Source: Candidatus Sediminicultor secundus (lineage in GTDB: Bacteria; Atribacterota; JS1; SB-45; 34-128). From it: a stretch of DNA of 11,548 nucleotides. Positions 2,306 to 11,548 of this stretch are shown in pieces (within the stretch, counting starts at the first letter, position 1; each line of letters begins with the position of its first letter). A model generated the notes under the pieces. That model worked only from the letters and a program-made list of their open reading frames with translations. It was not told the DNA's origin and made no database searches. A program made the translations under genes and the position numbers. The DNA lies in the NCBI GenBank assembly GCA_002849045.2, contig NCRO01000089.1:1-11548 (forward strand). Reading direction: 5' to 3'.

Positions 2306-2394
2306 TTGCAGCACCTTTTAAAAACCTACAACTATAATTAAAATTTAAAACTCGCTTTGGATCTCAAATAATTATACATTTATTATACCGCATT

Positions 2395-2455
2395 GCGTAT
2401 CGAGTATCGAGTATCGCGGACAAGAACAGTGATGAGTAATCTGTAATAAGTAATT
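2395..2455. repeat. Degenerate 7-bp tandem repeats between ade and uvrB (first block)
   Basis: Two heptamer runs are visible. Bases 2395-2415 hold GCGTATC followed by two GAGTATC units. Bases 2428-2455 hold AGTGATG, AGTAATC, TGTAATA and AGTAATT in one phase. They sit in the 470-base uvrB-ade spacer (2306-2775), which has no credible gene. An open frame at 2364-2549 on the minus strand simply reads through these repeats and the hairpin element beside them. Confidence 0.75.
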
Positions 2456-2456
2456 T

Positions 2457-2567
2457 GTAGGGGCACGATGCTTCGTGCCCAAGGTAAACCCTGCTTAGTA
2501 GATACTCACTTAGCAGGGTAAACAAAAGATAATAAAACAGGAAGGGCACAATTCATTGTGCCCCTAC
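2457..2567. repeat. MITE-like or REP-like hairpin element bounded by GTAGGGGCAC and GTGCCCCTAC
   Basis: This 111-bp element has 10-bp perfect terminal inverted repeats. Each end is itself a hairpin: GGGCACGA-TGCT-TCGTGCCC at 2461-2480 and GGGCACAA-TTCA-TTGTGCCC at 2544-2563. A third hairpin in the middle pairs ACCCTGCT (2488-2495) with AGCAGGGT (2512-2519). There is no coding capacity. A second element with the same end sequence and the same multi-hairpin plan lies at 8857-8953. This fits a dispersed non-autonomous or extragenic palindromic repeat. No clear target-site duplication is seen. Confidence 0.75.
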
Positions 2568-2589
2568 ACCTGAATCTTATTTTTTTCAC

Positions 2590-2670
2590 GCGATATACGA
2601 TACACGATATATAAAAAAAAGTTTTGAGTTTTGAATTATGGTTTTTCGCTTTTAGCTTTAAGTTTTTAGC
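2590..2670. repeat. Degenerate 7-bp tandem repeats between ade and uvrB (second block)
   Basis: Bases 2590-2610 read GCGATAT, ACGATAC, ACGATAT. After an A-run, bases 2622-2670 are seven in-phase T-rich heptamers: TTTTGAG, TTTTGAA, TTATGGT, TTTTCGC, TTTTAGC, TTTAAGT, TTTTAGC. The 7-base spacing holds although the units have diverged. Confidence 0.75.
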
Positions 2671-2709
2671 TATACACCGATAATTTAAATCTGGAAAATT
2701 ACATTTAAA

Positions 2710-2758
2710 ACTAACGACTATTCACTATTCACTAACGACTAATACATTAATGACTAAT
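2710..2758. repeat. ACTAACG/ACTATTC heptamer array next to the ade stop codon
   Basis: Bases 2710-2744 are five in-phase heptamers: ACTAACG, ACTATTC, ACTATTC, ACTAACG, ACTAATA. Weaker units CATTAAT and GACTAAT continue to 2758. The array ends about 18 bases before the ade stop codon at 2776-2778. The 17-mer CTATTCACTAACGACTA at 2725-2741 recurs exactly at 5723-5739 and, inverted, at 5319-5335. Confidence 0.85.
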
Positions 2759-2775
2759 TTAATTGGTTAATCAGC

Positions 2776-4488
2776 TTAATCTAAAAATAAATCTACGATT
2801 TTTGAATTATTAACATCTACCAAGCCTTTATTGGTTATTTTAAGATGGGGGGCTACCTCTAAAGATAGGAAGGCGATACTCATAAAAGGATTATCTACTT
2901 TGACCCCTAAATTTTTTGCAGTTCTATAAATAGAATCTAAATTTTCTTTCACCTCTAATAAAGGTCTATCTGACATCAAACCAGCAATAGGCAAAGGCAA
3001 GGAATCTACTATTTTTTCATTCACTGATATTGCTAATCCGCCTCCCATCTTAGCAATAGCTGCCCCGACATTTAACATATCTTTATCATTAGTACCCACA
3101 ATTATAATATTATGGGAATCATGGGCAACAGACGATCCTAATGCACCTTTTTTCAGGCCAATACCTTTAACTAAGCCTACACTTACTTTTTCTGAAGCAT
3201 GATGTCTCTCTACTACAGCAATTTTTAAAACATCCCGCTTGGCATCAGAAACCACAAAGCCTTCTTCGATTTTAGGAACTTCTACATTTTCTTCAGTAAT
3301 AATTTGACCGGGAGTAATTTTTATAACTCTGCATTTATTACCTCTTACTGGAATCTTGAAATCTTCAGGGTAAAGCCACTTGATATTAATTGATCCTCTA
3401 ATAGATACCTCCAATGGTTTGGGACTTAGCTTTGATAACTCCCCGTTTTCGGCAACCAATTTTCCATTATTAAAAACTTTAAGGATGTTAAAATCTTTAA
3501 AATTATCAAAAACAACCAAATTAGCCACATAACCAGGAGCAATTGCACCTAAGTTTCTTAGTCTAAAATATTCAGCAGTATTCAGGGTGGCCATCCTTAT
3601 GGCGGTAACAGGATCTATGCCCTTCTTTATGGTAGTTTTTATAATATAATTAATATGCCCCTCTTCAATTAAATCTTTGGGGTGACGATCATCACAACAA
3701 AAGAAACATCTCCTGGAATTATCAGGATTTATAAGTGGTAAAAGGTCGATTAAATTTCGAGTAACTGACCCTTCTCTCAACATAATATACATACCTAATC
3801 TCAATTTTTCTTTAGCCTCTCCTACTGTAGTACATTCATGGTCAGATCTTATTTGAGCGGAAACATAGGCACAAAGATCCTTGCCGGATAAATTAGGAGC
3901 ATGTCCGTCAATGCATTTTTTTGAGCACACTGCTATTTTATCTAAAACCTCAAGAATTTGGTTTAAAACTCCCGGAAAATTCATCATCTCTCCCAGCCCT
4001 AAAACCCATTTTTCGTCTAAAAGGGGAAATAAATCATTTACGCTAAGATTTGCACCAGAAGTTCCTAAAGATGAAGCAGGAACACAAGAAGGAAGCATCA
4101 TAAAAATATTTAAAGGATTATACTTGCTGGATTCTAACATATATCTGATACCTTCTAAGCCTAAAACATTGGCAATTTCGTGAGGATCAATAATTACTGA
4201 AGTTGTTCCCATTGGCACTACAGTTTTGGCAAATTCTGAAATTTTTACCATAGAACTTTCTAAGTGAATATGACCATCCATAAATCCGGGGGACAAATAA
4301 CAATTAGAGATATCTATTTCCTTGTCGGCGTAATATCCTTCCCCTAATCCTACAATCATATCCTTATAAATTGCAACATCGGAAGTATATATTTCTCCGG
4401 AAAAAACATTTATTATCTTCCCATTTCTTAATAATAAATCTGCTTTTTCCTCTCCTCGAGCAACTTTAATAATTTCAGCAAGATTCAT
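2776..4488 (-). CDS. ade: Adenine deaminase
   Basis: Metal-dependent amidohydrolase converting adenine to hypoxanthine and ammonia in cytosolic purine salvage. ATG 4488 is chosen because AAGGGGTG (4502-4495) lies six bases upstream; the in-frame GTG at 4497 is part of that ribosome site. The 570 residues match the usual family length. Motifs in order are LLRNGKIINVFSGE near 19-32, the metal-binding strand PGFMDGHIHLESSM at 67-80, DPHEIANV at 101-108, GHAP at 195-198, SDHE at 215-218 and CCDDRHP at 264-270. The beta-sandwich return GAIAPGYVANLVVFDNF and the family's C-terminal domain follow, with VAHDSHNIIIVG and GGGLA segments. It lies between coaE and uvrB, separated from both by repeat-filled spacers, so tight operon coupling is not evident. 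All expected motifs are intact, and I see no frameshift. Confidence 0.95.
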   Translation of the reverse strand: MNLAEIIKVARGEEKADLLLRNGKIINVFSGEIYTSDVAIYKDMIVGLGEGYYADKEIDISNCYLSPGFMDGHIHLESSMVKISEFAKTVVPMGTTSVIIDPHEIANVLGLEGIRYMLESSKYNPLNIFMMLPSCVPASSLGTSGANLSVNDLFPLLDEKWVLGLGEMMNFPGVLNQILEVLDKIAVCSKKCIDGHAPNLSGKDLCAYVSAQIRSDHECTTVGEAKEKLRLGMYIMLREGSVTRNLIDLLPLINPDNSRRCFFCCDDRHPKDLIEEGHINYIIKTTIKKGIDPVTAIRMATLNTAEYFRLRNLGAIAPGYVANLVVFDNFKDFNILKVFNNGKLVAENGELSKLSPKPLEVSIRGSINIKWLYPEDFKIPVRGNKCRVIKITPGQIITEENVEVPKIEEGFVVSDAKRDVLKIAVVERHHASEKVSVGLVKGIGLKKGALGSSVAHDSHNIIIVGTNDKDMLNVGAAIAKMGGGLAISVNEKIVDSLPLPIAGLMSDRPLLEVKENLDSIYRTAKNLGVKVDNPFMSIAFLSLEVAPHLKITNKGLVDVNNSKIVDLFLD

Positions 4489-4505
4489 ATTAATCACCCC
4501 TTTTT

Positions 4506-4540
4506 TCGTATATCGTATATCGTATTTCGTATTTCGTTAA
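4506..4540. repeat. TCGTATA/TCGTATT heptamer array just upstream of the ade ribosome site
   Basis: Five consecutive in-phase heptamers: TCGTATA twice, TCGTATT twice, then TCGTTAA. The array begins four bases from the ade Shine-Dalgarno sequence (4495-4502). On the other strand the unit reads TATACGA, the same word seen as TACGATA at 9084-9097. Confidence 0.9.
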
Positions 4541-4570
4541 AAACCTATACTTTATTCGCTATAAAATATT

Positions 4571-4647
4571 CTGAATACTGACTACTGGCTTCTGAATTCT
4601 ATACTATTTACGAGATACGTATTAGGCTTTTATCTTCTATCTTCTTA
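4571..4647. repeat. Phase-continuous CTGAATA/CTGGCTT and CTTCTAT heptamers between coaE and ade
   Basis: Eleven heptamers can be read in one phase: CTGAATA, CTGACTA, CTGGCTT, CTGAATT, CTATACT, ATTTACG, AGATACG, TATTAGG, CTTTTAT, CTTCTAT, CTTCTTA. A short run of AACT/AACC tetramers follows at about 4655-4676. The middle units are weak. The 204-base spacer 4489-4692 otherwise holds only the ade ribosome site. Confidence 0.7.
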
Positions 4648-4692
4648 ACCAGGTAACTAACCAAACAACTAACTAATTTTACCCGCTATACG

Positions 4693-5304
4693 CTAATAAC
4701 GAGATACAAGTTTTTTCCATATTTTTTCAACTTGTTTCTTCGTTTCATCCAGTGAATTACTATTGTCGATCACATAGTCAGCCATTTTAACTTTTTCTTT
4801 CATTGGCATTTGAGATTTTATCCTCTGTAAGGCTTCTTCTTTAGATAAATTATTTCTCTTAATTATTCTTTTTATCTGTTCATCTTCATCTATATATACA
4901 GCTATTATCTTATCCATTAATCTATCTATCTTGGCTTCATAGATTAACGTAGCATCTATAATTAATATTTTTTCCTGGTTGTGGGTTTTATTTCTTGCTA
5001 AATTTATCTCTTTTTTAATCAATTTTATTATTTCAGGGTGAGTAATTTCATTTAATTTCTTTAAGAGAGTCTGGTTTGTAAAGACTATTTTACCTAATTT
5101 TCCTCTATCAATAGTCAGGTCATTTTGTAAAATACCTTTCCCAAACAATCTAGTTATTTTTTTCCAGGCAGGTCTATGGGGTAAAATTACACTATGACCA
5201 AGTTTATCAGCATCAACAATTTTGGCACCTAAATCTTTAAACATTGATGCTACTGTACTTTTACCACCTACAATTCCACCTGTGAGACCAACAATTAATG
5301 CCAT
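4693..5304 (-). CDS. coaE: Dephospho-CoA kinase
   Basis: Phosphorylates the ribose 3'-hydroxyl of dephospho-CoA with ATP, the last step of coenzyme A synthesis. The 203 residues are the normal family length. The P-loop GLTGGIVGGKST spans residues 6-17; it satisfies GxxxxGK[ST], although the usual serine of GGIASGKS is glycine here. IVDADKLGH at 29-37 is the substrate-binding DAD motif. THPEIIKLIKKEI and ILIIDATLIYEAKIDRLMDKIIAVY match the lid and second core segment, and NNLSKEEALQRIKSQM matches the adenine-clamp region. The ribosome site GGGAGG (5314-5309) is four bases before ATG 5304. The final codons V-S-R-Y-stop are written in GTATCTCG-type repeat sequence, so the spacer repeats appear to reach into the gene's end. 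A polA-coaE neighbourhood is common in Gram-positive-type genomes, where mutM often lies between them. Confidence 0.95.
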   Translation of the reverse strand: MALIVGLTGGIVGGKSTVASMFKDLGAKIVDADKLGHSVILPHRPAWKKITRLFGKGILQNDLTIDRGKLGKIVFTNQTLLKKLNEITHPEIIKLIKKEINLARNKTHNQEKILIIDATLIYEAKIDRLMDKIIAVYIDEDEQIKRIIKRNNLSKEEALQRIKSQMPMKEKVKMADYVIDNSNSLDETKKQVEKIWKKLVSRY

Positions 5305-5318
5305 GATTCCTCCCTTAA

Positions 5319-5396
5319 TAGTCGTTAGTGAATAGTCGTTAGTATTAAATGCAAAATAAATTAGTCGCTAGTGAATAGTGAGTAGTCGTTAGCTAG
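5319..5396. repeat. TAGTCGT/TAGTGAA heptamer array, inverted copy of the 5722 array
   Basis: Bases 5319-5346 read TAGTCGT, TAGTGAA, TAGTCGT, TAGTATT. After 15 unrelated bases, 5362-5396 read TAGTCGC, TAGTGAA, TAGTGAG, TAGTCGT, TAGCTAG. This is the reverse complement of the ACTAACG/ACTATTC family. It fills the spacer from just upstream of the coaE ribosome site to the last codons of the four-helix-bundle remnant. Confidence 0.9.
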
Positions 5397-5652
5397 TATT
5401 TAGTTTCTTAATTAAACTCATAGTCATTTTACTAATCTCATCAATTTCATTTAGTAATTTATCAGCTTCCTTGTTTTCAAAATATCTCAGTCGTAAGGCA
5501 ATAATAATTTGAGTAGAAAGTTCGGCACAACTCCCCAGAGAGATAAACAGGAATTGTTTATATTCTTTATTAGAGAATCTTGCAAATCCTTCTGCTATGT
5601 TTGAAGGAATTGAAACAGCTGACCTTCTTAGCTGACTGGTCAATCCGTATAT
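5389..5652 (-). pseudogene. Four-helix-bundle (23S rRNA intervening-sequence, S23 type) protein, 5'-truncated remnant
   Basis: The translated frame reads I-Y-G-L-T-S-Q-L-R-R-S-A-V-S-I-P-S-N-I-A-E-G-F, the signature of the small helical proteins often encoded in 23S rRNA intervening sequences and scattered in uncultivated bacterial genomes. The second half, with SLGSCAELSTQIIIALRLRYF and a final leucine- and lysine-rich helix, looks complete. Family members are usually about 115-125 residues and begin with a W-Q-K-containing helix. Here homology starts at the conserved YGL, an in-frame stop lies at 5655-5653, and the upstream sequence is AT-rich with no match in any frame I read. The only start candidate is TTG 5643, without a clear ribosome site. 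The last codons and stop come from the repeat array. No rRNA is nearby. Its function, if any, is unknown. Confidence 0.7.
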
Positions 5653-5721
5653 TTAAATCTTTATAGCTTTTTATTTTTATATTATTTATATTTTCTTATT
5701 TTCTTAATCTTTTTACTAAAT

Positions 5722-5756
5722 ACTATTCACTAACGACTAACGACTATTCACTAATT
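5722..5756. repeat. ACTATTC/ACTAACG heptamer array overlapping the polA stop codon
   Basis: Five in-phase units: ACTATTC, ACTAACG, ACTAACG, ACTATTC, ACTAATT. The final unit contains the polA stop codon (TAG on the minus strand, 5753-5751) and the preceding Asn codon. The array is an inverted counterpart of the one at 5319-5346, so the two bracket the four-helix-bundle remnant. Between 5653 and 5721 there is only AT-rich sequence. Confidence 0.9.
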
Positions 5757-8414
5757 TAGTTCTGCCCAATTATTACCCGTCTTCAAATTTACTTTTATAG
5801 GAACAGAAATTTCTAAACTATGTTCCATAATCTCTTTAATGATGGATTTGACTTTTTCTAACTCTGGCTTGTAAACCTCAAATATTAATTCATCATGTAT
5901 TTGGAGTAGTAATCTACTTTTAAATCGTTCTTTTTTAAAAGATTCATCTATTTTAATCATAGCTAATTTTATTAAATCAGCTGCGCTTCCTTGAATTGGA
6001 GCATTAATTGCAATTCTTTCATTAAATTCACGGATATTTTTATCTTTACTGTTTATGCCTTCTAAATATCTCCTTCGATTTAACAGAGTTAATACATAGC
6101 CCTTCTTCCGAGCTTCCTCTTTCTCCCTTTCAATATATTTTTTTACCCCTTGATATCTAAAAAAATAATTATTAATATATTTTTCGGCTTCCTCTCTCCC
6201 TACCCCCAAATTACGCGCTAATCCATAACTGCTCATTCCATAAATAATGCCAAAATTAATTACCTTGGCCATTCTTCTCATCTGCTCGCTAATTATATTT
6301 TGATCAAGGTTAAATATTCCCGAGGCAGTATGAGCATGGATATCTTCATCATTTTTAAAAGCATTAAGCAAACTTTCATCGCGAGATAGATGAGCTAAAA
6401 TACGTAACTCTATCTGAGAATAATCTGCGGATAATAGCCCAAGTCCTTCCTCTGCGATAAAAGCTTTTCTAATTTCTCTCCCCATTTCGGTTCTGATGGG
6501 AATATTTTGAAGATTAGGCTCACTACTGCTTAATCTTCCGGTAGAAGTAACAGTTTGATGAAAAGAAGTATGTATCCTCTTGGTTTTACTGTTAACCAAA
6601 AAGGGTAATTTGTCGATATAGGTATTCTTAAGTTTACCTAATTCTCTATGTTCTAAAATAAAAGATACAATCTTATGCTGGGGAGCTAAAGTATTAAGTA
6701 CATCCGCATTGGTAGAATAGCCAGTTTTTGTCTTTTTTATTACCGGCAATTTTAATCTTTCGAAAAGTACAACACTTAACTGTTTAGGAGAATTAATATT
6801 AAATTCCGTTCCAGATAAATTATAAATAGTTTTTTTCAACTCTCCGAGACGGGTATCTACTTGTTGGGACATCTCTTTTAAAAAATCAATATTCACTTTA
6901 ATGCCATTGATTTCCATATCTCCTAATATTTTTACTAAAGGCATTTCTATTTTTCTAAACAATGAAATTAAATTTTTTTCTTCCATTTTTTCTTCTAAAA
7001 TATCTTTTAATTGTAATATATTTTGAGCGTTCTCGCAAGCATCTTCTATACTCATAATGGTATTTTGTTTGCCTTCTTTATTTTCATTATTTTTTAAATA
7101 TTTTAAGTATTCCCAAAATAAATTTCTTAAATTATAATTCTCACTTGAAGGATTTAACAAATAAGCAGCAATCATAGTATCAAAATTATTTCCTTCTATT
7201 ACAACTTTATGCCTACGAAGTACTATGAAATTAAATTTAAGGTTATGACAAATTTTAATAATTCCTTGGTTTTCGAAACAGGGACGCAATTTATTTAAAA
7301 CTAATTCGAGAGAAAGACATTTGGAATTTTCTATTAAATTTAAAACAAATAACGGGATATAATAATTTTCATTATCTTTGAAATTGAGGGCAATTCCTAA
7401 AATATTTGATGAAATAGCATTGTCTGAGGAAGCTACCAAATAGAAAGAAAAATATTTTCTTTCTATAATTTCATTAGTTAATCCTACTAATTTTTCTTCA
7501 GTGTCAATTAAATTGAATTTCAAATTGGCCTTTTCATGATTAATTTGAGGAATAATCTTTTTTAATAGATTTTTAAATTCTAATTTTTTAAATATTTTCC
7601 ACAATTCTTCGTAATTTGGTGATTTAACTCTAAAAGAATCAAAATCATACTCCATAGGAACTTCTCTCACAATAGTAGCCAACATTTTACTCATTTTAAT
7701 CTGATCTTCGTATTCTCTTATCATTTCTCTCAAAAATTTTTTAGAAATTTTTTCAGTATTGTTTAAAATATTTTCTACACTGCCAAATTTTTTAATTAAA
7801 GCTTGAGCAGTCTTTTCTCCTATGCCCGGAACACCCGGGATATTATCGGAAGAATCTCCCTTTAAGGCTAAAATATCCACTATTTTCTCAGGATCTACTC
7901 CATATTTTTCTCTGATAGTTGCTTCATCATAAATTTTAACCTCAGTTACTCCCTTGATAGTAGTCATTATCTTAGTATGGGGAGAGATAAGTTGAAAAGC
8001 ATCTTTATCTCCAGTAACAATAATCGTATTACAATTTTTTCTTTCTGCTTCCTTTGCTAAAGTACCAATAACATCATCTGCCTCATAACCTTCTTTAGAA
8101 CAAATGGCAATATTATAATTATTAATAATTTCTTTAATTAGGGGAATTTGGCTAATTAATTCGTCGGGCATTTTCTTCCGATGAGCTTTGTATTCTTTAA
8201 ACTCCTTATGCCGAAAAGTTGGAACAGGGGTATCAAAGGTAATTACTATATATTCTGGTTTTTCTTCTTCTAATAACCTGATTAATATCATAGTAAACCC
8301 GTAAACTGCATTGATAACCTGGCCATAAGTGGTAGTTAATTGAGGTAATGCATAAAAAGCACGGTAGAGCAAACCTTGCCCATCAACCAAAATAAATTTT
8401 TTCCTTTTATTCAT
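5751..8414 (-). CDS. polA: DNA polymerase I with 5' nuclease domain and degenerate 3'-5' exonuclease domain
   Basis: Fills gaps during Okazaki-fragment processing and excision repair. It has 887 residues, the usual length. The 5' nuclease spans about 1-290: FILVDGQGLLYRAFYAL, EADDVIGTLA at 111-120, GDKDAFQL, and GDSSDNIPGVPGIGEKTAQAL with its helix-hairpin-helix at 186-206. The proofreading fold follows at about 295-480, but exo I reads FSFYLVAS (Y325 and V327 replace the catalytic Asp and Glu) and exo II reads HNLKFNF (N395 replaces Asp). Only D458 of exo III remains, so proofreading is probably lost, as in Taq and Bacillus-type enzymes. The polymerase core is intact: motif A DYSQIELR at 664-671, motif B R713, K717, F721, Y725-G726, and motif C HDE at 840-842. 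The start is ATG 8414 with a weak GAAGAGAG upstream. The stop lies in a heptamer repeat. polA diverges from the tRNA-Leu promoter. Confidence 0.97.
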   Translation of the reverse strand: MNKRKKFILVDGQGLLYRAFYALPQLTTTYGQVINAVYGFTMILIRLLEEEKPEYIVITFDTPVPTFRHKEFKEYKAHRKKMPDELISQIPLIKEIINNYNIAICSKEGYEADDVIGTLAKEAERKNCNTIIVTGDKDAFQLISPHTKIMTTIKGVTEVKIYDEATIREKYGVDPEKIVDILALKGDSSDNIPGVPGIGEKTAQALIKKFGSVENILNNTEKISKKFLREMIREYEDQIKMSKMLATIVREVPMEYDFDSFRVKSPNYEELWKIFKKLEFKNLLKKIIPQINHEKANLKFNLIDTEEKLVGLTNEIIERKYFSFYLVASSDNAISSNILGIALNFKDNENYYIPLFVLNLIENSKCLSLELVLNKLRPCFENQGIIKICHNLKFNFIVLRRHKVVIEGNNFDTMIAAYLLNPSSENYNLRNLFWEYLKYLKNNENKEGKQNTIMSIEDACENAQNILQLKDILEEKMEEKNLISLFRKIEMPLVKILGDMEINGIKVNIDFLKEMSQQVDTRLGELKKTIYNLSGTEFNINSPKQLSVVLFERLKLPVIKKTKTGYSTNADVLNTLAPQHKIVSFILEHRELGKLKNTYIDKLPFLVNSKTKRIHTSFHQTVTSTGRLSSSEPNLQNIPIRTEMGREIRKAFIAEEGLGLLSADYSQIELRILAHLSRDESLLNAFKNDEDIHAHTASGIFNLDQNIISEQMRRMAKVINFGIIYGMSSYGLARNLGVGREEAEKYINNYFFRYQGVKKYIEREKEEARKKGYVLTLLNRRRYLEGINSKDKNIREFNERIAINAPIQGSAADLIKLAMIKIDESFKKERFKSRLLLQIHDELIFEVYKPELEKVKSIIKEIMEHSLEISVPIKVNLKTGNNWAELN

Positions 8415-8441
8415 AACTCTCTTCTTTCGTTCTATTTTTTC

Positions 8442-8470
8442 TTGACAATAAATATCACTTAACCTATAAT
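8442..8470 (+). promoter_or_regulatory. Consensus sigma70-type promoter for tRNA-Leu
   Basis: TTGACA at 8442-8447 and TATAAT at 8465-8470 are both perfect hexamers, separated by exactly 17 bases. Predicted initiation at about 8476-8478 leaves a leader of roughly 15 bases before the mature tRNA at 8493. The -35 box lies only 27 bases upstream of the divergent polA start codon, so polymerase bound here could interfere with a polA promoter in the same gap. I could not identify a polA promoter. Confidence 0.88.
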
Positions 8471-8492
8471 TTTTAAACAGAGATGCACATAT

Positions 8493-8581
8493 GCCGAAGT
8501 GGCGAAATTGGTAGACGCACTGGACTCAAAATCCAGCGAGCCTCACGGCTCGTGTCGGTTCGACTCCGACCTTCGGCACCA
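8493..8581 (+). tRNA. tRNA-Leu (anticodon CAA)
   Basis: This 89-base class II tRNA has an encoded CCA end (8579-8581). The acceptor stem GCCGAAG pairs with CTTCGGC (8571-8577), with discriminator A8578. The anticodon stem CTGGA/TCCAG encloses the loop CTCAAAA, giving anticodon CAA at 8527-8529, which reads UUG. The long variable arm pairs CGAGCC with GGCTCG, as expected for leucine. The T arm GTCGG/CCGAC carries the TTCGACT loop. It is the only complete rightward gene in the window and has its own promoter. Confidence 0.97.
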
Positions 8582-8586
8582 TCATT

Positions 8587-8682
8587 TCGTATCTCGTATC
8601 TCGTGAATCGTATCTCGTAAAAAAGAATTCAGAAAATAGGAGTCAGAAATAGGAATATACCTCGTATTTCGTATCGCGTAAG
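8587..8682. repeat. TCGTATC, AATTCAG/AAATAGG and TCGTATT heptamers downstream of tRNA-Leu
   Basis: Bases 8587-8621 read TCGTATC twice, TCGTGAA, TCGTATC, TCGTAAA. Bases 8626-8653 read AATTCAG, AAAATAG, GAGTCAG, AAATAGG, the reverse complement of the CTGAATT/CTATTTT family. Bases 8662-8682 read TCGTATT, TCGTATC, GCGTAAG. They open the 518-base tRNA-to-DUF2007 spacer (8582-9099), in which I see no gene. Bases 8683-8856 hold only isolated GCGTATC and TACGATA words and a possible old hairpin repeat at 8709-8749. Confidence 0.85.
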
Positions 8683-8856
8683 AGAAATAAAAAGTAATTC
8701 ACTCCAATTGTTATTACGAATCCTAATTCTATCAGGACGTGGTAATCCCTTTTTCGCATTGCGTATCACGCTACTTAATATACGATACAAATCCATCTAA
8801 TTTAGTTAATAATTCAAAACATTTTTATATAAAGTATCACTTGTTTTTATAATTTT

Positions 8857-8953
8857 GTAGGGGCACGATTCATCGTGCCCCTACTTCAACAGGAGAGACA
8901 CCTGCTCTACGATTTTATATTGATTTTTAAGGGCGTATGCAATACGCCCCTAC
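8857..8953. repeat. MITE-like or REP-like hairpin element, second copy (GTAGGGGC...GCCCCTAC ends)
   Basis: This 97-bp element has 8-bp perfect terminal inverted repeats identical to those of the 2457-2567 element. The left hairpin (8857-8884) is a perfect 12-bp stem GTAGGGGCACGA with a TTCA loop. The right hairpin pairs GGGCGTAT (8931-8938) with ATACGCCC (8942-8949) around GCA. A short CAGG/CCTG pairing lies between them. It is non-coding. The two copies share end sequence and plan but differ in hairpin interiors. Confidence 0.75.
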
Positions 8954-8959
8954 TTTTTT
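8931..8959 (+). terminator. Possible rho-independent terminator formed by the right end of the hairpin element
   Basis: The 8-bp GC-rich stem at 8931-8949 is followed by CCTAC and then T6 (8954-8959) with a further pyrimidine-rich tract. This resembles an intrinsic terminator for rightward transcription coming from tRNA-Leu, 350 bases upstream. The five bases between stem and T-run weaken it. No comparable structure is seen for leftward transcription of the DUF2007 gene. Confidence 0.3.
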
Positions 8960-8976
8960 CTCTCTCTTATTTTTTT

Positions 8977-9104
8977 TACTATATACTATATACTATATAC
9001 TCAATGCTCGATACTATCTTATCTTCTGGCTCCTAGATTCTGGCTACTGGCTTCTATTTTTTCCTTATTCACTACATACTATATACGATATACGATATAC
9101 TAAT
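8977..9104. repeat. Long heptamer tract TACTATA to CTGGCTT to TACGATA, reaching into the DUF2007 stop codon
   Basis: Bases 8977-9060 are twelve heptamers in unbroken phase: TACTATA three times, TACTCAA, TGCTCGA, TACTATC, TTATCTT, CTGGCTC, CTAGATT, CTGGCTA, CTGGCTT, CTATTTT. After a short phase slip, 9070-9104 read CACTACA, TACTATA, TACGATA twice, TACTAAT. The last unit contains the TAG stop codon (9102-9100) of the small gene to the right. Confidence 0.9.
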
Positions 9105-9364: not shown

Positions 9365-11548
9365 TTAATATTTTTCTGTCCATATTTTTTCATTTCTTAA
9401 AATTCCACGAATCTCTTCCATAAATTTATCATCAATGTTAACTGAATATTTTTTATCTATGGCATGTAATATAGTTTTATCCTTATCCTTAAAATGAAGT
9501 ACTACTTGACTTTTCCCTGGATAATCGTAAAATAATTCTTTTAACTTTCTTAGAAGATTAGGTTCATTTTTTTCAGTGTTAATCTCGAGATGAAGTTCTT
9601 CAGCAAGATTATTATTCTTCTCTTTTGTTTTAGAAGTAGGTTTTTTATTTTTTATGTATTTTCCTAAAAGAGATATTTTTTCAGCAATAATTTTTGTCTT
9701 TCCTTCTGCCACGTCAAGCCGTCCTTCTGTTATGACAATCTCATCTTTTTTTATCATTTCTTTGTATTTTTCGTAAACCTTAGGAAACGCTATTATCTCT
9801 ACAGTACCCTCTAAATCTTCTAAGGTAATAAATGCCATAAGATTCCCATTTTTAGTGCTCTTTCTTTTAAAATTATTAATCACTCCCGCTAAAACTACTC
9901 TACTTCTATCTGAAAAGTTAGCTAATTCAATTGAGGTAGAAGTTACAATTTTTTTTAATATTTCCTTATAATCATTCAATGGATGATAGGAAATATATAA
10001 TCCTAACATTTCTTTTTCCATAGCTAAGAGTTCATTTTTAGAAAATTCTGATATATCTGGCAATTTATCCTGGTAACTATCGCCATCTTTATCTGAATTA
10101 CTTTTTTCAAAAAGATCAAAGAGTGAAGTCTGCCCATTTCTCTTAGATTTTTGAAATTCTTGCCCGCTTTTTAATGATACATCTAAAACTGCCAATAATT
10201 GGGATCTTTTTGCACCAATAGAATCAAAGGCACCACATTTTATTAAACTTTCAATTACTCTCTTATTCACTACTCTTAAATCCACTCTCTGGCAAAAATC
10301 GAGCAAAGAAGTAAAATTAGAATTTCTTTTACGTTCTCCAATAATAGTTTTTATAGCCTTTTCACCAACATTTTTCACAGCAGCTAATCCAAAGCGAATA
10401 GCCTTCCCATCTACTACGGTAAAATTTACTAAACTCTGATTTATATCGGGAGGCAGTATTTCAATATTCATATTCCGGCATTCTTTTATATATAAAGCTA
10501 CCTTATCGTTATTTCCCATAATACTGGTAAGTAAAGAAGCCATATATTCTATTGTATAATGAGTTTTTAAATAGGCAGTCTGGTAAGAAATAAACGCGTA
10601 AGAAACGCTGTGAGATTTATTAAAACCATATCCGGCAAAATAAGCAATCAAATCAAATATTTCAGCAGCTGTATTTTTTTCAATATTATTTTTTTGAGCA
10701 CCTTTTATAAAAAGTTCTCGTTGTTTTTCCATTACTCCTTTCTGTTTTTTTCCCATAGCTTTTCGTAAAATATCTGCCTGTCCTAAGGTAAATCCTGCTA
10801 ATTCACTGGCAATTTTCATAACCTGTTCCTGATAAACGATTACTCCATAAGTTTCCTTTAATATAGATTCTAATCGAGGATGTGCATACTTTATTTCTAC
10901 AATTCCCTTCTTCCTATTAATGAAATCCTCGATCATACCGCTTCCCAAAGGTCCTGGCCTATACAATGCCAGCAAGGCAGTAATATCTTCTATGTTTTCA
11001 GGTTTTAATCTTTTAACTAAATCTCTCATCCCTTCACTCTCTAACTGGAAAACACCGGCACAGTTTCCTTTAGATAACATCTTGTATACTTTTTTATCAT
11101 CCAAAAGAACCTTGTTTATATCAACCTTTTCTCCTTGAGTATGTTTTATTATTTTTAAAGCATTACTTATAACAGTTAAAGTGCGAAGTCCTAAAAAATC
11201 CATTTTCGATAATCCAAGTTCTTCCAATTCAGCCATAGCATACTGGGTACATATTTCTCCTTCAGCTGTCTTTTGTAGAGGAACGTAATCAGTCAGTGGC
11301 TTTCGAGAAAGAACTATGCCCGCAGCATGAGTAGAAGCATGTCGAGCTAAACCTTCTAAAGAAGAAGCGGTCTCAATCAATTTTTTTATATCCTCATCGT
11401 TTTTCATTAACTCTTTGAGTCGGCTTTCCATCTTTAAGGCCTTTTCTATGGTAATATTGGGTTCCCAGGGGATCATTTTAGCGATAGTATCCACTCGAGC
11501 ATAGGGAATTCCTAATGCTCTTCCTACATCTCTAACAGCAGCTCTGGC
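9365..11548 (-). CDS. dnaE: DNA polymerase III alpha subunit, carboxy-terminal part (5' end continues beyond the window)
   Basis: The frame is open to the last base ([10 protein letters not shown]), so the apparent GTG start at 11494 is only an internal Val codon. The 727 residues cover the rest of the palm with EGVFQLESEGM-type and RPGPLGSGMIEDF motifs (third catalytic Asp region), and fingers containing YGVIVYQEQVM, LRKAMGKKQ and AGYGFNKSHSVSYA. A helix-hairpin-helix region follows (AAVKNVGEKAI, VIESLIKCGAFD). A clamp-binding pentapeptide QTSLF lies at 10132-10118. An OB fold runs from V-V-L-A-G-V-I-N-N to I-T-E-G-R, and the C-terminal domain ends at TAA 9365. Adding the 374 non-overlapping residues from the left piece gives about 1100 residues plus the missing N-terminus, close to the usual ~1150. 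This is the native copy orientation, matching its neighbours. Confidence 0.97.
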   Translation of the reverse strand, partial: ARAAVRDVGRALGIPYARVDTIAKMIPWEPNITIEKALKMESRLKELMKNDEDIKKLIETASSLEGLARHASTHAAGIVLSRKPLTDYVPLQKTAEGEICTQYAMAELEELGLSKMDFLGLRTLTVISNALKIIKHTQGEKVDINKVLLDDKKVYKMLSKGNCAGVFQLESEGMRDLVKRLKPENIEDITALLALYRPGPLGSGMIEDFINRKKGIVEIKYAHPRLESILKETYGVIVYQEQVMKIASELAGFTLGQADILRKAMGKKQKGVMEKQRELFIKGAQKNNIEKNTAAEIFDLIAYFAGYGFNKSHSVSYAFISYQTAYLKTHYTIEYMASLLTSIMGNNDKVALYIKECRNMNIEILPPDINQSLVNFTVVDGKAIRFGLAAVKNVGEKAIKTIIGERKRNSNFTSLLDFCQRVDLRVVNKRVIESLIKCGAFDSIGAKRSQLLAVLDVSLKSGQEFQKSKRNGQTSLFDLFEKSNSDKDGDSYQDKLPDISEFSKNELLAMEKEMLGLYISYHPLNDYKEILKKIVTSTSIELANFSDRSRVVLAGVINNFKRKSTKNGNLMAFITLEDLEGTVEIIAFPKVYEKYKEMIKKDEIVITEGRLDVAEGKTKIIAEKISLLGKYIKNKKPTSKTKEKNNNLAEELHLEINTEKNEPNLLRKLKELFYDYPGKSQVVLHFKDKDKTILHAIDKKYSVNIDDKFMEEIRGILRNEKIWTEKY
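11436..11548 (-). repeat. 113-bp inverted repeat, right copy (dnaE overlap at the window end)
   Basis: Exact reverse complement of 1125-1237. The dnaE frame runs through it without interruption, so this copy sits in its native context. The window stops exactly where the repeat does, which fits a contig end at an unresolved assembly-graph branch. Confidence 0.97.

Follow-up and report, generated by a model that had tools for sequence, protein, structure and literature searches.

Heptamer arrays between the genes of an Atribacterota contig are probably the ends, intact or leftover, of a small PF05635 mobile element

The stretch of DNA considered here, hereafter the window, comprises 11,548 nucleotides (nt) of contig NCRO01000089.1 from Candidatus Sediminicultor secundus (Atribacterota). 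It carries a split dnaE, a cut uvrB, adenine deaminase, coaE, a fragment of a PF05635 (S23/IVP family) gene, polA, tRNA-Leu and a 75-aa open reading frame (ORF), the gene calls being those of a simple longest-ORF script, and its spacers are rich in degenerate tandem units of 7 bp. We argue that these heptamer blocks are probably the terminal inverted repeats, intact or leftover, of a small mobile element built around a PF05635 gene. Such an element would consist of an arm of about 33 bp (four to five heptamers), a gene of about 360 bp for a four-helix-bundle protein of the S23/IVP family, and a second, inverted arm of the same heptamer family.

Pooled over seven spacer stretches of the window (1,490 nt), identity at lag 7 reaches 0.448, where shuffles average 0.292 (z 13.6; highest value among 300 shuffles, 0.332), with harmonics at lag 14 (z 9.2) and lag 21 (z 5.5); the coding DNA of the window (9,968 nt) is without lag-7 excess (z -1.7). 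The original prediction had listed nine heptameric stretches, held that such units form a large share of the non-coding DNA over at least five spacers, and proposed lag-7 autocorrelation across the genome as a check. These claims hold up. At lag 7 each of the nine stretches scores above all of 500 dinucleotide shuffles, and z lies between 3.1 and 7.9 in five of the six spacer stretches longer than 60 nt (8415-8492 reaches only 1.1). Tandem Repeats Finder reports period 7, 14 or 21 at the heptamer stretches, and the arrays of a stricter finder cover 162 of 470, 110 of 195, 65 of 446 (a stretch that takes in a small gene) and 172 of 519 nt of the window spacers, with zero coverage in two short ones. 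For the genome level we sampled 12 stretches, about 236 kb, from two Atribacterota relatives, chosen regardless of arrays. Intergenic identity at lag 7 is 0.362 and 0.349 there, against 0.304 and 0.309 at other lags, with no excess in coding DNA (0.274 and 0.276); at a threshold of 11 the array finder returns 64 arrays from spacers and their margins totalling 28,274 nt, whereas simulated spacer yields 2 and coding DNA, over 207,390 nt, likewise 2. Samples from Omnitrophota, Nitrospirota, Methylotenera, Elusimicrobiota and Spirochaetota gave no clear lag-7 peak, and a Bacteroidota sample with a mere 744 nt of spacer gave 0.316 vs 0.278.

The arrays were oriented by a score, GT+AG minus AC+CT, in which the GT-type strand counts as forward; the score cannot be relied on for A/T-rich families. 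A filter removed arrays with strong period 1-3 and thereby hid some arms (L442, L447). The features of the spacer between coaE and polA are as follows.

5317..5755, no strand: decayed PF05635 (S23/IVP) element between coaE and polA, a gene fragment flanked by inverted ACTAACG/ACTATTC arms
5389..5643, minus strand: PF05635 gene fragment of 84 aa, 5' part lost (97.2 bits against a PF05635 cut-off of 33.8; intact relatives known)
5317..5396, plus strand: forward-reading (AGT-type) arm region with adjacent arrays at 5317-5343 and 5362-5386 (array finder, Tandem Repeats Finder)
5714..5753, minus strand: reverse-reading (ACT-type) arm adjoining the polA stop codon (array finder)

That 5317-5755 is a decayed copy of a PF05635 element is shown by the same junction in relatives, which gives a series from intact gene to arms only. 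The full gene is present in L229, the window has lost the 5' part, L237 keeps a 3' fragment, and L233 has arms of the same family with the gene gone and a different sequence between them; the remaining relatives have short or different spacers. The polA-coaE spacers of L232 and L233 share their interior and differ in the family of the left arm (TAGTATA vs TAGTGAA), so that arms can apparently be exchanged. The window PolA shares 90-92% identity with the PolA of seven genomes found by a pattern scan and 73-81% with that of three others, all ten lying inside the Atribacterota set used for the subsequent searches, and gene order around polA is common to the relatives wherever their loci extend far enough. 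Repeats in the homologous spacers of relatives, which had been expected, are present, although often of a different family.

PF05635 is found in 22 of 50 Atribacterota genomes, in up to 11 copies, and in none of 14 control genomes; it is also present in 58 of 97 Omnitrophota, 32 of 61 Nitrospirota, 45 of 61 Bacteroidota and 13 of 60 Spirochaetota genomes. One heptamer (ACT) pattern occurs in 14 of the 50 Atribacterota genomes, and PF05635 is present in 12 of these 14 against 10 of the 36 others (Fisher p 0.0003, a value that ignores kinship). We examined the best matches, at most 30 per search and near full length, so that the rates given here apply to well-conserved genes; one gene entered the Atribacterota list of 29 twice, as L229 and L283, and both entries are in the Atribacterota counts for arms, matching and protein correlation. 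Arrays lie upstream of the gene in 25 of 29 Atribacterota, 26 of 30 Omnitrophota, 14 of 24 Nitrospirota, 15 of 26 Bacteroidota and 8 of 13 Spirochaetota cases, and downstream in 23, 23, 10, 15 and 5 of the same sets. By comparison, simulated flanks gave 0-2, other genes in the same loci had arrays at 18 of 138 edges upstream and at 33 of 120 downstream, and Omnitrophota ParE genes at 0 of 14 upstream and 1 of 14 downstream, in a control that lost 16 of its 30 loci where the script did not locate the gene. The arrays are also oriented: at the 29 Atribacterota genes the nearest upstream array is forward in 23 cases, reverse in one and undecided in one, and the nearest downstream array reverse in 22 and forward in one. 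This polarity is opposite to that at ordinary genes, as expected for a gene that is cargo.

The two arms of an element resemble each other far more than they resemble the arms of other elements. Similarity within and between elements is 0.651 vs 0.319 in Atribacterota (21 pairs), 0.592 vs 0.202 in Omnitrophota (20), 0.632 vs 0.196 in Nitrospirota (10) and 0.507 vs 0.197 in Bacteroidota (13), a level of matching reached by 0 of 5000 permutations in each of these phyla. In two elements that were folded, the arms pair in the predicted structures (z -4.3 and -7.2). The arms found among 142 distinct elements have a median length of 33 bp on either side, and over 94 elements arm similarity correlates with protein identity (r 0.398, 0 of 2000 permutations, likewise 0 of 2000 within phyla), being 0.909 at more than 90% identity (11 pairs), 0.644 at 70-90% (53 pairs) and 0.20-0.25 below 50%. 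The Atribacterota element L228 and the Omnitrophota elements L323 and L328, with proteins 75 and 74% identical, have an arm similarity of 0.94. The correlation shows joint inheritance of arms and gene, not recognition of one by the other.

Heptameric short tandemly repeated repetitive (STRR) sequences are known in filamentous cyanobacteria. A likeness between these and the repeats of the window had been pointed out in the original prediction, and it holds: heptamers on cyanobacterial plasmids flank the same small gene, PF05635, as the inverted arrays of the window. If published GGGAATC heptamers were of the same class, a PF05635 gene would be expected between such arms in a GGGAATC genome, and one such case was found. 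Three GGGAATC units in tandem occur in one of 369 sampled Gammaproteobacteria genomes (G700), and the single PF05635 match of that genome (64 of 106 positions) is flanked by GGGAATCGGCAATGGGGAATCGGGAATCG and, on its downstream side, CGATTCCCTACTCCCCATTCCCGATTCCCG. Among plasmids, 44 records contain a PF05635 relative, 17 of them from Nostoc and 4 from Calothrix. In the 14 of these records whose arms were examined, the script found arrays on both sides in 11, in the expected orientation in 9, and heptamer-like arms are visible by eye only in three; the arms of L457 were found by reading the sequence and missed by the script. Inverted matches inside the plasmid elements score 38.4 vs 22.2 for permuted partners (0 of 5000), although an element's own partner ranks first in its row for only 6 of the 14. 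In the plasmids L440, L443 and L448, two of the S23 genes stand between cas6 and cas4 and the third between cas10 and a Cmr3-family gene.

The limits of the element, its presence or absence at a given site, and its decay can each be observed. In genome G007 a second copy lies 3.2 kb from the first; the two are 95.5% identical along about 500 bp, a match that begins and stops at the outer arm ends (-1/+7 and -7/0 nt). The L425 copies agree from arm to arm, unlinked copies within one genome being alike over that length only, with terminal inverted ends delimiting the moved unit. In the best 40 of 331 copy pairs, which share copies and include orthologous ones where the match runs on, 13 have a left end no more than 20 nt from the outer arm end in each copy, and right ends are more variable. 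The copies in G168 and G243 set no element limits and were rejected as delimiters. Seven plasmid sites were searched, and six have an empty allele; closely related Nostocales plasmids, some of which have the element while others lack it, thus record either its insertion or its loss. Site 5 is filled in Trichormus and Scytonema and empty in Nostoc linckia, Tolypothrix and four similar records among the matches listed; its flanks are 97.6-99.5% identical, GTAAT stands on either side of the insert, and the empty alleles inspected there are without a heptamer array. The inserts measure 428 and 414 nt, the 14-nt difference sitting in the arm, and a filled pair at another site differs by a single 7-nt unit. 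At site 2, three Nostoc plasmids lack the insert (two were measured, at about 90-92%) and TTCTA flanks it. Possible target duplication, in the form of 5-bp direct repeats at sites 5 and 2, stands beside target loss at site 1, where two plasmids are empty with about 42 nt of target replaced and a third (L497) has arm-like arrays without a gene, and at site 4, empty in Calothrix, where about 13 nt of target are missing from the filled allele. Empty alleles also exist for site 6 and the L447 site; at the L440 cas6-cas4 site, the relative compared has other filler.

Arrays in general follow rules of orientation and size, which we traced in unselected Atribacterota stretches, in a pattern-selected set (70 of 120 stretches used; 80 were listed and 10 from other groups set aside) and in 107 viral loci. 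Within 40 nt of a gene edge, 35 arrays read inward into the spacer, 1 outward and 2 undecided in the unselected stretches (n=38), with 108, 8 and 2 in the pattern-selected (n=118) and 189, 64 and 12 in the viral loci (n=265). Ordered pairs in one spacer face each other rather than away (21 vs 0 of 31, 101 vs 8 of 179, and 74 vs 1 of 119, respectively). Beyond 120 nt from an edge the rule is weaker, the inward/outward counts being 1/4, 31/16 and 6/5. Of six adjacent-array exceptions listed, four involve one A/T-rich composite family and one encloses a 68-codon ORF. Edges of tRNA genes behave alike, with 13 of 15 arrays inward; seven of these 15, however, come from the tRNA-Leu site in relatives, to which one genome contributes two, and both outward cases are one Arg locus counted twice. 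Blocks measure about 33 bp, or four to five units: chains of 3 to 7 [AC]GT anchors at 7-nt spacing number 24, 18, 21, 3 and 5 in the unselected sample, and 54, 64, 64, 13 and 16 in the viral loci, which have a tail of longer chains. Published counts are similar, four units being commonest in Xanthomonas (PMC4692102, in part) and TAACTGA sets having four copies in 19 cases, five in two and six in one (PMC4679880, Table 1). In the viral contigs L028, L062 and L072, several spacers have facing arrays around one and the same centre sequence, as though the unit had been copied whole.

The remaining arrays of the window are as follows.

2389..2416, plus strand: forward array, CGTATTG/AGTATCG family, the family of the arms of L281, L303 and L425
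2428..2459, plus strand: degenerate forward array, AGTAATA-like (compare the arms of L285, L308 and L290)
2591..2609, minus strand: short reverse array, ACGATAT family (array finder)
2620..2669, plus strand (orientation score unreliable, A/T-rich): AGTTTTG/TTTTAGC-family array (compare L430)
2710..2742, minus strand: reverse array, ACTAACG/ACTATTC family (array finder)
4506..4537, plus strand: forward array, TCGTATA family, as in the arms of L286 and L291
4568..4645, minus strand: reverse composite array, CTGAATA/CTGACTA/CTGGCTT with degenerate units after, as in the arms of L431
8584..8619, plus strand: forward array directly 3' of tRNA-Leu, units in the order TCGTATC, TCGTATC, TCGTGAA, TCGTATC
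8662..8680, plus strand: short forward array, TCGTATT (array finder)
8977..9015, minus strand: reverse array, TACTATA/CTCGATA family, as in the arms of L425 and L426
9023..9100, minus strand: reverse composite array, CTGGCTN, then ACTATAT/ACGATAT (array finder)

The unit order at 8584..8619 is identical in the arms of L228 and nearly so in the Omnitrophota L323 and L328. Window families that recur in the arms of Atribacterota PF05635 elements are AGTCGTT/AGTGAAT (L282, L283), CGTATCT/CGTGAAT (L228), AGTATAT/AGTATCG (L425, L426, L304), CGTATAT (L286, L291), CAGAAGC/CAGAATT (L431) and, less clearly, AGTTTTT (L430) and AGTAATA (L285, L308). An ACT core common to all heptamers fits many Atribacterota and viral arrays and is excluded by arms such as GGAAGTT, AGCTCTA and GGGTCCA.

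Several findings weigh against the mobile-element reading of the heptamer blocks. Gene-less facing arrays are not significantly matched in family, at 0.409 vs 0.345 for 12 pairs (281 of 2000 permutations) and 0.332 vs 0.304 for a second set of 50 pairs (242 of 2000), and the outermost gene-less pairs are likewise unmatched, apart from one set with a weak signal. A strict model of inverted repeats in gene-less spacers is therefore not supported. One phmmer query found no PF05635 relative in the 107 array-rich viral loci, where the first heptamer pattern tried had no match either. Genomes G001 and G004 have the ACT pattern without PF05635, and 10 of the 50 Atribacterota genomes have PF05635 without the pattern. 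In Spirochaetota, arm matching is not significant (3 pairs, 824 of 5000); in G168 and G243, any array is present at only 4 of 9 near full-length genes; and in the 142 elements the script picked up only 86 arms upstream and 74 downstream that were oriented as expected. At site 2 the 5-bp repeat may partly belong to the arm, profile searches recognised no catalytic or known transposase family in the element protein, and the Microcystis TAACTGA sets obey no simple orientation, as described in part of PMC4679880.

A rival reading, which we consider unlikely, is that the arrays come from another process and the PF05635 genes are passengers inserted into or captured by them. Gene-less arrays far outnumber the genes (in G003, 179 matches of one pattern vs 5 genes), their pairs are unmatched, and one site may have been used twice, the L237 fragment being 89% identical to that of the window at a PolA identity of 73%. 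Passengers, however, give no account of arms that are alike within an element and unlike between elements, of ParE genes without arms, or of empty alleles at site 5 that have no heptamer array. Our preferred reading, in which the gene and its arms form one mobile element, would take the gene-less arrays as scars of the element or as non-autonomous copies resembling REPINs (hairpin-forming doublets of repetitive extragenic palindromes, REPs): the gene would decay, and the arms would persist as inward-facing blocks, changing by whole units and swapping families. Telomere-like capping of DNA ends was dropped, the arms being matched within gene-bearing elements and the inserts present in plasmids.

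The original prediction itself inferred a process that generates or tolerates 7-bp steps. Whole-unit copy changes and the genome-wide excess in the two sampled relatives bear this out in part, but it omits the main structure: typical block size, inward orientation, and a gene with arms matched per element. Plain replication slippage in 7-nt steps, tolerated between genes (the proposal, recounted in part in PMC4692102 and PMC4679880, has 7 nt match a polymerase contact), is distinctly improbable. Near-identical copies do differ by whole units, yet chain length drops sharply past five anchors, the arrays follow an orientation rule and associate with one gene family, and an identical ordered unit string recurs at unrelated places. 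Least probable of the three is a selected regulatory role for the arrays, as leaders or binding sites ahead of start codons and as multi-frame stops or terminators behind stop codons. The median distance of Atribacterota arrays is indeed 2.5-3 nt from the preceding stop and 17-19 nt from the following start, and in a Beggiatoaceae genome 147 of 170 TAACTGA sets are directed at a start codon and were interpreted as regulatory (PMC4679880, Table 1). Orthologous spacers, however, differ in family, and arrays at tRNA edges too are inward.

How might so small an element move? We suggest that the S23/IVP protein, or an enzyme guided by it and possibly acting in trans, recognises the period-7 arms and inserts the element into gene junctions, and that a pentamer ring might sit on the roughly five heptamer units of an arm. 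Recognition is suggested because the element has no other gene, because its polar residues Q40, R43, S47, N51, E54, S74 and E77 (L229 numbering, 141 proteins) are near-invariant, because the solved relatives 2gsc and 2rld have five chains each, and because the arms have about five anchors and pair in folds. The X. campestris S23-family protein is described as a homopentamer (PMC4990558, in part, citing Lin 2006). A tentative extension, which we hold to be possible and somewhat less likely than its opposite, is that the pentamer is itself a transposase or integration factor of a new kind and that what it reads is no fixed sequence but the 7-bp period, with each subunit on one heptamer. Arm ends could then drift freely yet remain self-matched, many heptamer repeats reported since the 1990s would be its ends, and the intervening sequences (IVS) of 23S rRNA its best-known insertions. 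With candidate ends, insertion sites and near-invariant residues named, the enzyme can be sought directly. The relative P0001 scores 143.6 bits against PF05635 and 136.5 bits against TIGR02436 (cut-off 24). Three protein relatives matched only the PF05635 and bAvd families, and Avd of diversity-generating retroelements is a distant relation, P0001 reaching 29.5 bits for PF22296 (bAvd) and 26.7 bits for DivGenRetAVD, below the curated cut-offs of 40 and 80. Reverse transcriptase (PF00078) occurs in 7 of the 22 Atribacterota genomes that have PF05635 and in 3 of the 28 that lack it, and was not found in G003 or G007; among the genomes searched, many of them maybe incomplete, its presence does not support a required partner.

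Among the nearest known systems is the 23S rRNA IVS with an S23 ORF, for instance in Coxiella burnetii, which has the same protein family and inverted ends; the section of PMC4990558 on it places tandem heptamers of strain-dependent copy number just 5' of the S23 ORF and recounts that a mobile origin was already suggested (Burgin 1990; Ralph and McClelland 1993). The elements described here share the S23 ORF inside paired inverted ends (their arms are matched, and two elements fold) and differ in being intergenic, in occurring in at least five phyla and in having heptamer arms on both sides. A scan of 17 PF05635 loci found no rRNA and only 3 tRNA matches; the window copy stands between coaE and polA. 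REPINs and their RAYTs (REP-associated tyrosine transposases; PMC3116915, in part) likewise combine a rarer gene tied to a repeat with many gene-less inverted intergenic pairs, in contrast to which the present ends are tandem heptamers, not REP palindromes, the protein is a four-helix bundle, not a tyrosine transposase, and two sites have an apparent 5-bp duplication. Gene-less facing pairs are common here, and they are not significantly family-matched.

The Xanthomonas GGGAATC and Nostoc GGGGA(C/T)T repeats (PMC4692102) and TAACTGA (PMC4679880) have 7-bp units as here; the excerpts of these two papers drawn on here leave function and origin open and do not link them to PF05635. Two Xanthomonas genomes have 70 and 75 convergent heptamer pairs, and the repeats lie nearer the 5' gene (28 nt) than the downstream gene (160 nt); Nostoc, unlike the elements here, is reported to have few paired repeats (PMC4692102). 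We did not find heptamer repeats joined to PF05635 mobile elements in the open-licence literature, and within it, old as the idea of IVS mobility is, the link to heptamer repeats generally appears new. The element may account for the origin of many bacterial heptamer repeats. Two old puzzles meet in it, the abundance of intergenic heptamers in bacteria and the role of the S23 protein in 23S IVS, and if arms and gene belong together, heptamer-rich genomes are records of a tiny, widespread mobile element. A regulatory or G-quadruplex function should not be inferred from heptamers until mobility has been excluded.

The window has further features outside the arrays. Palindromes of the type GTAGGGGC...GCCCCTAC at 2457-2567 and 8857-8950, also present in the spacers of relatives, recall GTAG-tagged REPs (PMC3733652, in part). 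To our reading, 8441-8470 is a promoter-like TTGACA...TATAAT 5' of tRNA-Leu, and relatives are similar. The N-terminal part of dnaE lies at the left end of the window on the plus strand and the C-terminal part at the right end on the minus strand, with an exact 113-bp inverted duplicate inside the gene (1125-1237 and 11436-11548) at whose junction uvrB is cut; the arrangement looks like an assembly or amplification chimera.

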